Of a stretch of DNA of 7,362 bases, positions 130 through 7,362 are shown one piece after another. The DNA is taken from contig JADFON010000083.1 in the NCBI GenBank assembly GCA_022562855.1, forward strand, positions 1 through 7,362. The letters run 5' to 3'. The notes beneath the pieces are model-generated. The model worked only from the letters and a program-made list of their open reading frames with translations, did no database searches and had not been told where the DNA came from. The DNA comes from Candidatus Zhuqueibacterota bacterium (GTDB taxonomy: Bacteria > SM23-31). Each line of letters starts with the position of its first letter. Positions within the stretch are counted from its first letter, which is position 1. Made by a program: the position numbers and the translations under genes.

Positions 130-642
130 TCAGGCGCCCTCGCGGATCTTGGCTCCGCGGTGGGGCTCGGGCAACACGTTGGCGACCTCGGTCGAGAAGA
201 AATCGAGCACGTAGCGCACCACGTCCTTGATCGATACGATCGAGACCGGCCGATCCTCGTCGTCGACGATCGGAATGTGGCGGTAGCCCCCCACCTGCAT
301 GTTGTGCGCCGCGTGGATGATCGGGTCGCTCTCGCGCAGCGAGACCGGGTCCCTGGTCATCACGTCCGACACCAGGGCGTCGAGCCTGTTGACGCTCACG
401 ACCAGGTCGCGCTCCGTGAAGATGCCCACGAGCTTGCCGCCCTCGGTGACCGTGATGGCACCGAACTCATGCTCTCGCATGATCCTCACCGCATCGAGGA
501 CCGTCTTTTGGCAGTCGATCGAGATGGCCCGCTTGGATAGCAGCTTGCGCACCGGTTCATTGAAGGCCGCCACGGTCAGCGCCGGTTCGGGCGCAACGTC
601 AGAGGAGAGCCGGTTCAGTTCGTCTTCGAGTCCATCGTCCAT
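130..642 (-). CDS. two-CBS-domain protein (putative adenine-nucleotide sensor)
   Basis: This 170-residue protein is almost entirely a pair of CBS domains (a Bateman module). The first covers about residues 30-84 and includes the run KTVLDAVRIM, an acidic/glycine turn and LVGIFTERDL. The second covers about 92-147 and includes VSDVMTRDPVSL, YRHIPIVDDE and VSIVSIKDVV. In the family such modules bind AMP, ATP, NAD or S-adenosylmethionine and regulate a partner protein; here no catalytic domain is fused, so the partner is unknown. There is no signal peptide or membrane segment, so it should be cytoplasmic. The start at 642 is supported by GGAGG eight bases upstream. The 29-residue N-terminal lead and the tail after 147 (FFSTEVANVLPEPHR) match nothing I can name. 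G+C is far above that of the other genes in the window, and codons mostly end in G or C. The gene is complete and looks intact. The fold is confident; the ligand and role are not. Confidence 0.9.
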   Translation of the reverse strand: MDDGLEDELNRLSSDVAPEPALTVAAFNEPVRKLLSKRAISIDCQKTVLDAVRIMREHEFGAITVTEGGKLVGIFTERDLVVSVNRLDALVSDVMTRDPVSLRESDPIIHAAHNMQVGGYRHIPIVDDEDRPVSIVSIKDVVRYVLDFFSTEVANVLPEPHRGAKIREGA

Positions 643-752: not shown

Positions 753-789
753 CATAAAAAAACGCGCATCATAATCACATGATGCGCGT
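753..789 (-). terminator. intrinsic terminator on the minus strand, orphaned
   Basis: Read on the minus strand, ACGCGCATCAT (789-779), a six-base loop GTGATT and ATGATGCGCGT (772-762) form a perfect 11-bp stem. It runs directly into a seven-T tract and then ATGCG. This is the textbook layout of a factor-independent terminator for a transcript moving leftward. No minus-strand gene ends to its right: the DNA there encodes a plus-strand receiver. It was probably the end of a gene that sat upstream of the CBS gene in its original genome. Its right arm also supplies the ATG codons at 779 and 782 that open the truncated receiver frame. Confidence 0.7.
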
Positions 790-1096
790 CAATTTGATAT
801 TCGATTATTTTGATGCGTATGACGGAACTACCGGTTATAGTCTTATATTGGAGGAAATGCCGGATTTAATAATCCTCGATATTAAGATGCCCAGCTTGAG
901 CGGATTAGAAGTGTTAAAGAAAATAAGAACAAACACGGATTCAAATATCTCGAAGATTCCTGTCATTATGCTTACCGCTGCCAGCGATTCTGAAACTGTC
1001 CAAACGGCTATTGAACAAGGCGCTTCTAATTACTTGCTGAAACCCTTCCAAAAGACCGCCCTGATCTCCCGTGTAAATAAAATACTAAAACTGTAA
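779..1096 (+). CDS. response regulator receiver domain, N-terminally truncated
   Basis: The 105 residues match a CheY-like receiver from roughly helix 1 to helix 5. Visible are DLIILDIKMP with the phospho-acceptor Asp at residue 34, VIMLTAAS with the switch Thr at 66, and YLLKPF with the conserved Lys at 88. The first strand and the acidic pair that binds Mg2+ should lie about 20 residues before the start, and they are missing. The frame is closed by a stop at 755-757, just upstream. The two ATG codons at its front lie inside a terminator hairpin and have no ribosome binding site. The start is therefore probably an accident of a DNA junction rather than a native start. As it stands the protein should not be phosphorylated normally. 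No output domain follows, so it was either a single-domain regulator or the C-terminal receiver of a hybrid kinase. The histidine kinase begins 93 bases downstream on the same strand and may belong to the same pathway. Confidence 0.8.
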   Translation: MMRVNLIFDYFDAYDGTTGYSLILEEMPDLIILDIKMPSLSGLEVLKKIRTNTDSNISKIPVIMLTAASDSETVQTAIEQGASNYLLKPFQKTALISRVNKILKL

Positions 1097-1189: not shown

Positions 1190-2737
1190 ATGATATATAA
1201 TTATACTTATTTTGAGAAATCTGTCTATTCTGTCCATTCAATTTCACAAAGTCGCAAAAGAATATTACTGCTTGCAGCAATACTATTAGTTTTATCCGGC
1301 GTTTATCCCTTCTTGATAGGATCGTCATATAAGGGGAGCGCCGATCTTCATGGAATTATTGAGATGGTCGGTTCTTTGATGGGATTGATAGCGGGGATTT
1401 CGTTAATTACGCGGTTTTATAACCTTGGAAATCGATTTCAATTGTATATAGGTCTGGCGTTCTTTATTAATGGATCAGAGGATTTTATTCATGGATTACT
1501 CTCATTCAGCAGTGTGCGTTGGCTTGGAGGACCCGCTTCAAGTTTGGTACAATTCATACCCGGCACCTATGTCACCGGCCGTCTTTTGATGGGTGTGATT
1601 CTGATTATCGGATTAATTATACCGGTATGGATGGGGAAAGCAAAGAACCTGAAAAAAGAAACGCTGTGGACCATTATTGTAACAGTAATTATCACTATGG
1701 TGGTTACAATAATTGCCTTTATGATTCCATTGCCAAATTTTGTCTATCAGGATAGACTAATATCCCGACCTATAGATTTCCTGTCAGCTATTGTTCTTGC
1801 TGTCGCCTTTATAGGATTTGTTATAAAATATCTGAATGAAAGAAGCAGATTGATTTGGTGGATTGCATTATCAATCGGTATCAATGTTGTCGGTCAGGTT
1901 ATAATGTCTTTTTCTAAAGAACTTTACGATCCCTATTTTGATATAGCACATACATATAAAGTGTTAGGTTACTTTGTTCCTCTTTTAGGTTTTTCTTTTT
2001 ATCAAATTTCGATCATTCTTGAGCTTAGGCAGGCAGAAGAGGAACTACGCTCCTTAGATCAAATGAAAAATAATTTCGTCGCATCTGTATCGCATGAATT
2101 AAGAACGCCGCTTACATCGATAAAAGGCTCAATCGGATTGTTGTTGGCAGATTATGCAGGAAAAATCGATAAGGAGGCAAGAGAATTTTTGGATATTTGC
2201 TATGCGAATACTGAGCGATTGATCCGAATAATCAACGATCTTTTAGACCTTTCTAAGTTTGAAGAAAAGAAAAAAGAACTGAAAATGGAGGAATTTGATA
2301 TCGCAGACCTCATTAATGAAGTAATAGTGAGTTTAAAACCTCTCGCTAATGCTCATTCATCAAGATTAGTTTCTGACTTAACGGGAAAAAACACTATAAT
2401 TGCCGACAGAGATAAAATTGCCCAGGTATTAATTAATCTCATATCAAACGGTATCAAATTCTCAGGTGGAGGTGATATTGCAGTTTCATCTCATAAAAAT
2501 AATAAAGGAATTAATATCATTGTATCTGATTCGGGAGATCCGATTTCTAAGGATAATAGAGAAAAAATATTCGACAAATTTGTTCAGGTCGACAATTCTC
2601 CAAGTCGTAAAATTGGCGGCACCGGGTTGGGACTATCCATAAGCAAAGCTATCATTACGATGCATAACGGAAAAATATGGGTGGAAAGCAATGAAAAAGG
2701 AAATAAATTCAATTTTACAATTCCAAGCCATCAATAA
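1190..2737 (+). CDS. membrane sensor histidine kinase with MASE3-like N-terminal domain
   Basis: This 515-residue sensor kinase has an N-terminal block of about seven or eight membrane segments (roughly residues 24-279). That block resembles MASE3-type sensors: DLHGIIE with His54 and Glu58, and SEDFIHG with Glu97, Asp98 and His101. A short coiled linker (about 277-293) leads to HisKA with the phospho-acceptor His302 in SHELRTPL. The catalytic ATPase domain follows, with the N box QVLINLISN (about 412-420), G1 box, F box IFDKFVQVD and G2 box GGTGLGLSI (476-484). The protein should autophosphorylate His302 and pass phosphate to a response regulator. There is no HAMP, PAS or periplasmic sensor domain, so the signal is probably sensed in the membrane. 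The G1 box reads DSGDPI, with Pro where the second Gly is usual. The gene looks complete, and its codons are AT-rich. The receiver upstream is the obvious candidate partner but is truncated here. The ligand is unknown. Confidence 0.92.
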   Translation: MIYNYTYFEKSVYSVHSISQSRKRILLLAAILLVLSGVYPFLIGSSYKGSADLHGIIEMVGSLMGLIAGISLITRFYNLGNRFQLYIGLAFFINGSEDFIHGLLSFSSVRWLGGPASSLVQFIPGTYVTGRLLMGVILIIGLIIPVWMGKAKNLKKETLWTIIVTVIITMVVTIIAFMIPLPNFVYQDRLISRPIDFLSAIVLAVAFIGFVIKYLNERSRLIWWIALSIGINVVGQVIMSFSKELYDPYFDIAHTYKVLGYFVPLLGFSFYQISIILELRQAEEELRSLDQMKNNFVASVSHELRTPLTSIKGSIGLLLADYAGKIDKEAREFLDICYANTERLIRIINDLLDLSKFEEKKKELKMEEFDIADLINEVIVSLKPLANAHSSRLVSDLTGKNTIIADRDKIAQVLINLISNGIKFSGGGDIAVSSHKNNKGINIIVSDSGDPISKDNREKIFDKFVQVDNSPSRKIGGTGLGLSISKAIITMHNGKIWVESNEKGNKFNFTIPSHQ

Positions 2738-4324: not shown

Positions 4325-6985
4325 TTAAAACGCCGGGGCAAACAGAATACTGCTTAGCAGCAGTCTGTCTAATCCGCGCCAGTATAATCTGAATGTCGGG
4401 TCGTCGGCAAAGAGTATAACGTGACCGCCGCCAAGCGGAACGTCCGCAAGATACATTTTCCCGGTCAGGACTTCTTCGCTGTCTTCCCATTTATGACCCA
4501 TGATAAAGGAATTCTCCGGAAAAGTGACGACGTTTGCGCCGGTTTTTGTCCCGGGAAAGAGATAACTGCCACGAACCTGAACAGCAATTTCCTCCGGGTA
4601 TCCCAGTCCGAGATAATAGTCGTTATTTACGCGGGCTTTGAAGATCGAACCGGGGATATTTTCAACGGGTTTCATCGGGGATTCGTCTTCATTTTCAGTC
4701 ATCGGTTCAGGGTCAGAATCGGGCACTTCGGTAATCAATTTTACATCGGTCATTTCAACACCGCTTCTGTTGGCGAAAACTGCTCCTCCTTTTATCCCGA
4801 TAAATGTCCCGCCGCTCCTGACCCACGCTTTGAGATTCTCAACACCTGTTTCTCCAAGCGTAGTTTGATATCCCGAAGCAGAACCATCGGGGAAAATAAT
4901 GACATTATATCGTGACAGGTCAGCCGCCGCAAAATGTTCGGCGCGGACCGCAGAAAATTCGAGTTCGTATCTCTTCTCAAGCATATACCAGATTGCGCCG
5001 TATGCTGTCGGGCTGGCAGGGGCGTTGGTAAGCACCATGATTCTCGGTTTCTCTAAGTTTCGCACAGACCCGGAGCCAAGTGAAATGCCGGTTTCACCCC
5101 ATGCGGTATTTACTGCAAAGACTTCCGTTCCGTATTCTTCCGCAAGACCGGAAATCCTGTTATGCAGTGTTTCGGGATTTCGCTGGGTTCTTACGACAAG
5201 CGTCCCCTGGGGAAAATCCCTGCCGCCGTTCCTGAATTCTTTTGTTGCAAGCGCCACTCTATAATCTTCCTGCAACAGCCGTCCTGCAAGTTTTGCGCCT
5301 GCATCTGTCTCGTATGAAAATAGATACGCATAACCCGCTCTTCCGCCGTCTACTTTACCTTCGCTTTGCAGATTTTCGGTGATACGCCGGCTTCCCGAAA
5401 CAGAAAGCGCCTCCCCGGTGAATACCGCTTCTACGCCGTAGGTCAACGGCAAAGCCCATGCGGTTACATCATAAAACCCGGTGCGTTCCTTTGGTGCGGA
5501 TGAGCCGAGTTTTTTGTTGCGGTTACGAATTTCTTCGACCCTTCCGAGAAACAAGTCTTCCATCTTCGGGTCGGGTTCAAGAAGCGTTTTGATCATCCTT
5601 TTTTGCGGCTGATTGAGCGGTATCAAATAGCTTCCCGATGGGATTAATCTCGTTTTGGCAGACCGGTCGTGGTATGTTTGGGATGACCCGACTGTGATTT
5701 CAGAGCTTGTCTTATAGATCTCGAATTGATGCAAAAGAAAGAGGTTTACCAACTCAATCAATCTGCCGTTATCCCGCCCCGGAACCAGGATATAGGTCTT
5801 GAACTGCTCATCCTTCGCTTCATCCATGCCGGTTTTCCGGAATGCAAAAAAATCGTTGAGTATAGCTTCCCGGTTATCCGCTAAGACCTCCAGCGTTGCA
5901 ACATTTGTCGTGAAATGGTGATGAATTCCATCTCTCAATGTTTTTATTGTCTTGTCGGGGATTTCATATCGAAAGGCTTTTCGTCCGCCGCCGTCTGTTT
6001 CGTAGGTCATCCCGATTGCGCCGTAAAACGCCGGATAGGAGTCCCAATATCCAGGGTAATAAATATCATATGTTTCATCTTTCTTGAATGTCCATCCGTA
6101 TTTATCGAAATACCGTGCGTTATTCAGCCCTATCTCTGTTGCCCATTTTAACAAGGAAGAGGGGTAGTTGAGGTTAATAGGTGAAACAAACGGGGCAAAG
6201 AAATATTCGTCCGGGTCGCCGTGATTATCTACCCATATTTGAGGGTTCCAGTGGTGCATGACCTTGGTTGATTCCCGTGTTTCAAGCTGCGACTGCGCAA
6301 AAGCGTCGCGGTTCAGGTCGATGTCATAATGGTTGTTATTCGTTGCCATGAGCCAGTCACCCCTGTGTTCGGTGGCAGCAGGGTCCGCGGTTCCGTATTT
6401 CCCGACGGTTACCGCTTTCATCCATGTCACATACCGCTGGTGACTGTCCGGGTTGAGAGCCATATTTAAAATTGTAATTACTTCCCGGTTTATCTTGTTT
6501 GTCACCGGGTCGCTGCCTGCGGCAAGCTGGTACGCTAATTGGATCCCTGTTTCAAATGCCGCCGATTCGTTTCCGTCATTGGCATAATTCATCCAGCCTA
6601 TTGCGGGAGTAGTGCGTGCAATCTCCGCCGCTTCGGATTCGCTGATAGCTCTCGGGTCGGTGAGTCTTTCAATTGCCAGCCGGATGTCTTCTAACCGGCT
6701 CATGTTTTCGGGTGAACTGATGATGACTAAGTAAAGATCGCGTCTCTCAATTGACTGACCGAACTTAACGATCTGCACCTTATCCGTTGATTCGGCGAGT
6801 TTGCGAATATAGTCTACCATCTGCAGATGATCGGTCAGATACGTGCCGATTTCGAACCCAAGGACAGATTCGGGCGTCGGTATGGACCGGTCATAGGTAC
6901 TCCCCGGCAGCCAATCAAAACCTTGTGCAAAAATGAGGGCGGGTAATAGTATTATTGCGAATATCGTAATCGAAATTTTTTTCAT
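4325..6985 (-). CDS. secreted M14-type zinc carboxypeptidase homologue with C-terminal amidotransferase-like domain
   Basis: From the ATG at 6985 the product is 886 residues. Residues 1-21 form a Sec signal peptide (MKKISITIF, hydrophobic stretch, then IFAQG), so it acts outside the cytoplasm. The M14 carboxypeptidase fold covers roughly residues 35-370: DGNE (137-140) at the HxxE zinc site, DIDLNRD with Asn225-Arg226 as the substrate-carboxylate pair, VDNHGD with zinc ligand His255, and MTYETDGGG with candidate catalytic Glu329. The first zinc ligand is Asp137 rather than His. A class I amidotransferase-like domain follows at about 646-744 (RIMVLTNAP, YNVIIFPDG, GGTFIGIKGG) without a nucleophilic Cys. 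An acidic loop (about 755-775) and a conserved-looking tail follow. The expected role is digestion of exogenous peptides, if active. The frame continues upstream to 7048, but AGAAAGG six bases before 6985, plus the signal peptide, fixes the shorter start. It appears to be a monocistronic gene. Confidence 0.9.
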   Translation of the reverse strand: MKKISITIFAIILLPALIFAQGFDWLPGSTYDRSIPTPESVLGFEIGTYLTDHLQMVDYIRKLAESTDKVQIVKFGQSIERRDLYLVIISSPENMSRLEDIRLAIERLTDPRAISESEAAEIARTTPAIGWMNYANDGNESAAFETGIQLAYQLAAGSDPVTNKINREVITILNMALNPDSHQRYVTWMKAVTVGKYGTADPAATEHRGDWLMATNNNHYDIDLNRDAFAQSQLETRESTKVMHHWNPQIWVDNHGDPDEYFFAPFVSPINLNYPSSLLKWATEIGLNNARYFDKYGWTFKKDETYDIYYPGYWDSYPAFYGAIGMTYETDGGGRKAFRYEIPDKTIKTLRDGIHHHFTTNVATLEVLADNREAILNDFFAFRKTGMDEAKDEQFKTYILVPGRDNGRLIELVNLFLLHQFEIYKTSSEITVGSSQTYHDRSAKTRLIPSGSYLIPLNQPQKRMIKTLLEPDPKMEDLFLGRVEEIRNRNKKLGSSAPKERTGFYDVTAWALPLTYGVEAVFTGEALSVSGSRRITENLQSEGKVDGGRAGYAYLFSYETDAGAKLAGRLLQEDYRVALATKEFRNGGRDFPQGTLVVRTQRNPETLHNRISGLAEEYGTEVFAVNTAWGETGISLGSGSVRNLEKPRIMVLTNAPASPTAYGAIWYMLEKRYELEFSAVRAEHFAAADLSRYNVIIFPDGSASGYQTTLGETGVENLKAWVRSGGTFIGIKGGAVFANRSGVEMTDVKLITEVPDSDPEPMTENEDESPMKPVENIPGSIFKARVNNDYYLGLGYPEEIAVQVRGSYLFPGTKTGANVVTFPENSFIMGHKWEDSEEVLTGKMYLADVPLGGGHVILFADDPTFRLYWRGLDRLLLSSILFAPAF

Positions 6986-7147: not shown

Positions 7148-7166
7148 AAAAAATATTATAAATATT
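7148..7166 (-). terminator. weak AT-only terminator candidate after the partial AbrB-like gene
   Basis: On the minus strand AATATT, TAT and AATATT form a small hairpin that overlaps the stop codon and leads into TTTT. The stem has no G-C pair, so terminator strength is doubtful. Confidence 0.2.
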
Positions 7167-7362
7167 GTATTCGGGCTTTTTTAATCAACATTGTTCTGTT
7201 AGTGTATCTAGATATTGATATAGGATCTCCTTCTCTAAGATCCAAATAATTCAATACTTCCTCGGGAATCTTTATCGAGCCATTTGTAATTCGAGCATGT
7301 GATGGTTCAAGTTCGGATCTTTCGGCTTCACGAAATCTTTTACTTTTCTGATCACAATATAC
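7156..7362 (-). CDS. partial protein with AbrB/MazE-like C-terminal domain
   Basis: The minus strand is open from the window edge to a TAA at 7156-7158, giving the last 68 residues of a protein whose start lies beyond base 7362. Residues about 23-62 of the fragment (HARITNGSIKIPEEVLNYL, then DLREGDPISI) follow the swapped-hairpin pattern of the AbrB/SpoVT/MazE DNA-binding domain: a short strand, the I-x-IP-x-EV segment, L-x-L-x-EGD, then a final strand. In the family these are transition-state regulators or antitoxins that bind DNA as dimers. Here the domain sits at the C-terminus rather than the more common N-terminal position in antitoxins, after a charged stretch (KSKRFREAERSELEP). Base composition is AT-rich like the kinase. 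It is divergently spaced by 170 bases from the peptidase start on the same strand, so they are tandem and it may be upstream in transcription. A toxin partner, if any, is out of view. Confidence 0.6.
   Translation of the reverse strand, partial: VYCDQKSKRFREAERSELEPSHARITNGSIKIPEEVLNYLDLREGDPISISRYTNRTMLIKKARIQYL

Follow-up and report, generated by a model that had tools for sequence, protein, structure and literature searches.

Chimeric misassembled contigs are a known type of error in metagenome-assembled genomes (GUNC, PMC8201837). The DNA analysed here, which we call the window, spans all 7362 bp of contig C89 from the draft genome G000, an assembly of 2.51 Mb in 491 contigs with a listed completeness of 79.6% and contamination of 2.5%. 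The genome is presumably derived from a metagenome, since it is fragmented and carries chimeric contigs. C89 resembles the contigs described with GUNC in that fragments of different source genomes appear to share one contig, in that lineage and composition change within it, and in that the genome passes marker-based contamination limits; it differs in that the foreign pieces of G000 mostly form tails, 0.5-1.7 kb long, at contig ends. As the sequence comparisons below indicate, C89 is very probably a chimera of two bacterial genomes, its junction an artefact and not a product of biology. The features on which this reading turns are as follows.

1-790, no strand: G+C-rich segment (0.65), foreign and from a different bacterium, probably Myxococcota-like, as judged from the G+C step against the genome mean of 0.42 and from full-length CBS relatives in Myxococcota.
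130-642, minus strand: complete gene for a protein of 170 aa with a pair of CBS domains, assigned to the left donor (two stretches match Pfam CBS, E 3e-25; proteins in two Myxococcota genomes share 44% identity with residues 1-165).
761-790, minus strand: hairpin resembling a Rho-independent terminator, whose 11-bp core pairs perfectly (762-772/779-789) and which ends in a T tail, from fold and repeat analysis.
790-805, no strand: probable false join, between the end of the complete hairpin at 790 and the start of receiver similarity at about 800-812.
791-1096, plus strand: receiver domain that lost its first ~40 residues to the join (Response_reg positions 27-110 of 111 only; intact relative in G001).
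1190-2737, plus strand: MASE3 sensor histidine kinase, the receiver's partner (Pfam; same receiver-kinase order in contig C273 of G001).

The composition of the contig changes abruptly. From position 1 to ~790 the G+C content is ~0.65, against a genome average of 0.42, and across the ~2 kb to the right of ~790 it is 0.31-0.44. A single change-point model fitted to positions 1-2800 gains 88.7 in log-likelihood, and the local fit around the best change-point gives 0.647 on the left and 0.365 on the right. The original prediction of two-thirds G+C to the left of the break is thus borne out; the value of roughly one-third that it gave for the right side fits about 900-2700, whereas later genes climb to 0.45-0.53. 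The same prediction placed the break at 779-795. The break is real, but its position shifts: the composition-only optimum is 744 (741-755), slightly to the left; the A+T-rich hairpin stretch (744-790) accounts for this shift and keeps G+C alone from giving a tighter position. Because the complete hairpin runs to 790 and receiver similarity starts at about 800-812, we infer that the exact join lies at about 790-805.

On the right of this point, the receiver gene is incomplete in the manner originally claimed. The Pfam Response_reg match begins at residue 12 of the frame and lacks profile positions 1-26, and the first strand and the acidic residues of the fold are missing; an in-frame TAA at 755-757 closes the frame upstream, as had also been noted. 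The frame itself (105 aa) runs from an ATG at 779, which is accidental, to a stop at 1096. An intact counterpart occurs in G001, a genome of the same family, where contig C273 has related genes in the same order: first a receiver with 45% identity, then a kinase whose kinase domain is 62% identical. In contrast to the window, the G001 receiver is complete at 144 aa, with about 40 additional N-terminal residues; upstream of it lies a further receiver gene, and no CBS gene adjoins the receiver-kinase locus. The G001 kinase also has its own N-terminal sensor part, PAS-like by eye. Given this complete counterpart, the right side of C89 is a normal stretch of the binned lineage interrupted inside the receiver gene. 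Elsewhere, the neighbourhoods of CBS genes (L202 and others) yielded weak similarity to the receiver or kinase, at 22-34% identity; these hits were set aside as generic two-component genes in other arrangements.

The left side points to a different lineage. Relatives of the CBS protein recovered through short exact peptide patterns share only 24-51% identity and come from many phyla. At strict limits, three nearly full-length matches were obtained among 377 Myxococcota genomes (44%, 44% and 42% identity, from residue 1 or 4 to 165), the phylum being identified through one genome that bears the Myxococcota label; these genes sit in a local G+C of 0.69-0.70. No match was obtained at the same limits in samples of 39, 398, 396 and 298 genomes from four other phyla that hold CBS relatives, each phylum-level search being a genome sample with a limited first look. 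Myxococcota is therefore likely to be the donor phylum, judging from these protein matches. Searches of genomes, plasmids and viruses returned no parent sequence at high identity, and neither plasmid DNA nor viral contigs yielded any relative of the left side. Among the sampled contigs of G001 and the remaining ones sampled from G000, nothing related to the CBS protein turned up, and Rfam recognised no RNA in the window. When the two sides are compared with genomes separately, as originally suggested, the right leads to the same-family G001 and the left to Myxococcota, where its best full-length relatives share 44% identity, so that the taxonomic affinity of the contig differs across the join.

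We considered whether other contigs of G000 end in a similar way. Together with the window, the 86 further contigs that were read make a sample of 87 contigs and 594 kb at a G+C of 0.42, contigs shorter than about 3 kb (which read as N) being left out. Interior windows were 500 bp long and more than 2 kb from any contig end, and the G+C threshold was set three standard deviations above their mean. It is exceeded by 8 of 174 contig ends and by 0 of 459 interior windows (Fisher p 2.9e-5), an excess that holds without the window (p 1.0e-4). The highest interior 500-bp value in this tiled sample is at most 0.542, whereas the left side of C89 reaches 0.658. In a denser scan, one stretch (L164, 0.562-0.568) lies about 1.2-1.8 kb from the left end of its contig and is not strictly terminal; every other stretch above 0.56 is at or near a contig end. 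None of 38 ends in the G001 assembly exceeds the threshold, although these are too few for the difference from G000 to be significant alone (p 0.36).

The clearest of the other tails is in C120 (L094), where the stretch 4969-6393 reads in one frame from a truncated SDR gene into a DprA gene without a start, short of about 43-56 N-terminal residues. The fusion point coincides with a G+C step from 0.44 to 0.60, and this SDR-DprA fusion is false, another misjoin. C90 (L091) is G+C-rich over positions 1-1660 and links a membrane-sensor-like gene to a fragment, after which comes a heme A synthase. C96 (L153, from ~5650), C101 (L157, from ~5980) and C56 (L122, from ~8170) step from about 0.38-0.40 to 0.58-0.60, and C86 (L146) has a G+C-rich tail from ~6500-6800. 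The tails of C90, C96, C101, C56 and C86 are probably further false joins. Across the tails G+C spans about 0.57-0.65, and such genes as can be recognised in them are of ordinary kinds; because the values differ and the genes are of this kind, the tails seem to derive from several donors. By eye, the C101 tail may consist of two unrelated fragments, flippase-like and then MMPL-like; family scans gave no confirmation of this. The right end of C420 (L114) has a G+C of 0.226 over its last 500 bp, which could be an A+T-rich donor tail or an ordinary intergenic region.

A genuine boundary of recombination or horizontal transfer, in which myxobacterial DNA was very recently inserted into a receiver gene of the binned lineage and the contig happens to end nearby, would locally look identical, with the same step and the same truncated gene. 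Assemblies frequently break close to variable regions, which fits a contig ending near such an insertion. We nevertheless regard it as improbable. In the tiled sample, contig ends repeatedly carry tails of foreign appearance and interior windows carry none, and other joins break genes too, a pattern not expected of natural transfer; their cargo is ordinary (DprA, heme A synthase). As to signs of integration, no recombinase gene is recognised in the window and no direct repeats of at least 12 bp occur in 600-1000, a result limited to this side of the left segment because the contig does not reach its other end. Still harder to credit is a single genome with no junction at all, in which a G+C-rich gene stands beside a naturally short receiver. 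The ATG at 779 does open a 105-aa frame, but that frame is without the acidic pair of the fold, the left side far exceeds any interior window of the tiled sample in G+C, and its CBS protein is without kin in the sampled contigs of either genome.

The hairpin bears on how the join arose. Its folding energy is -22.5 kcal/mol (z -3.7), with 0 of 200 shuffled sequences folding equally well, and a perfect inverted repeat of at least 11 bp is found in only 0.5% of random 150-bp stretches of the G000 genome. Both the 11-bp repeat and a minus-strand terminator aimed at no gene, as originally described, are real: the hairpin reads from 790 to 761, and no minus-strand gene occurs to its right before 2875. 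This rarity, and the position of the repeat directly to the left of the join, would suit template switching at the repeat during amplification, as the original prediction proposed. That proposal finds no support, and we give it next to no weight: within 75 bp of six other joins of G000 there are only perfect inverted repeats of 4-6 bp, the background level, and the repeat at 762-789 is typical of a terminator with its T tail. It looks like an ordinary terminator that by chance is the final element of the left donor to survive intact. The exact hairpin is absent from viral contigs, and its arms occur in no locus beyond copies of C89. Probably it terminated a minus-strand gene of the left donor, one that would have been removed at the join.

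A misjoin thus remains the preferred reading, as it was the simplest one originally. It rests on the composition step, on a receiver gene severed at the join yet intact in the G001 pair, on the similar tails at other contig ends, and on the myxobacterial affinity of the left gene against the same-family affinity of the right. In such a misjoin, a bacterium rich in G+C and probably Myxococcota-like would have contributed ~790 bp, which library preparation or assembly attached to ~6.57 kb of the binned organism of ~42% G+C, and the false join would have removed the start of the receiver gene on the right and the gene served by the leftover terminator on the left. The lineage of the donor is likewise inferred, as is the step at which the error arose; for that step we lean towards the assembler, because tails of 0.5-1.7 kb exceed one short read.

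The value of the finding is one of data quality only. The CBS gene should not be attributed to the binned organism, the receiver of C89 is not naturally truncated, and gene fusions in G000 such as SDR-DprA are false. Contig ends of this assembly should be trimmed or distrusted, even though the genome is within the usual contamination limits (2.5%). At the opposite end of C89, an open-ended frame of 68 aa (7156-7362, minus strand), with no Pfam match, resembles by eye an AbrB-type DNA-binding protein.
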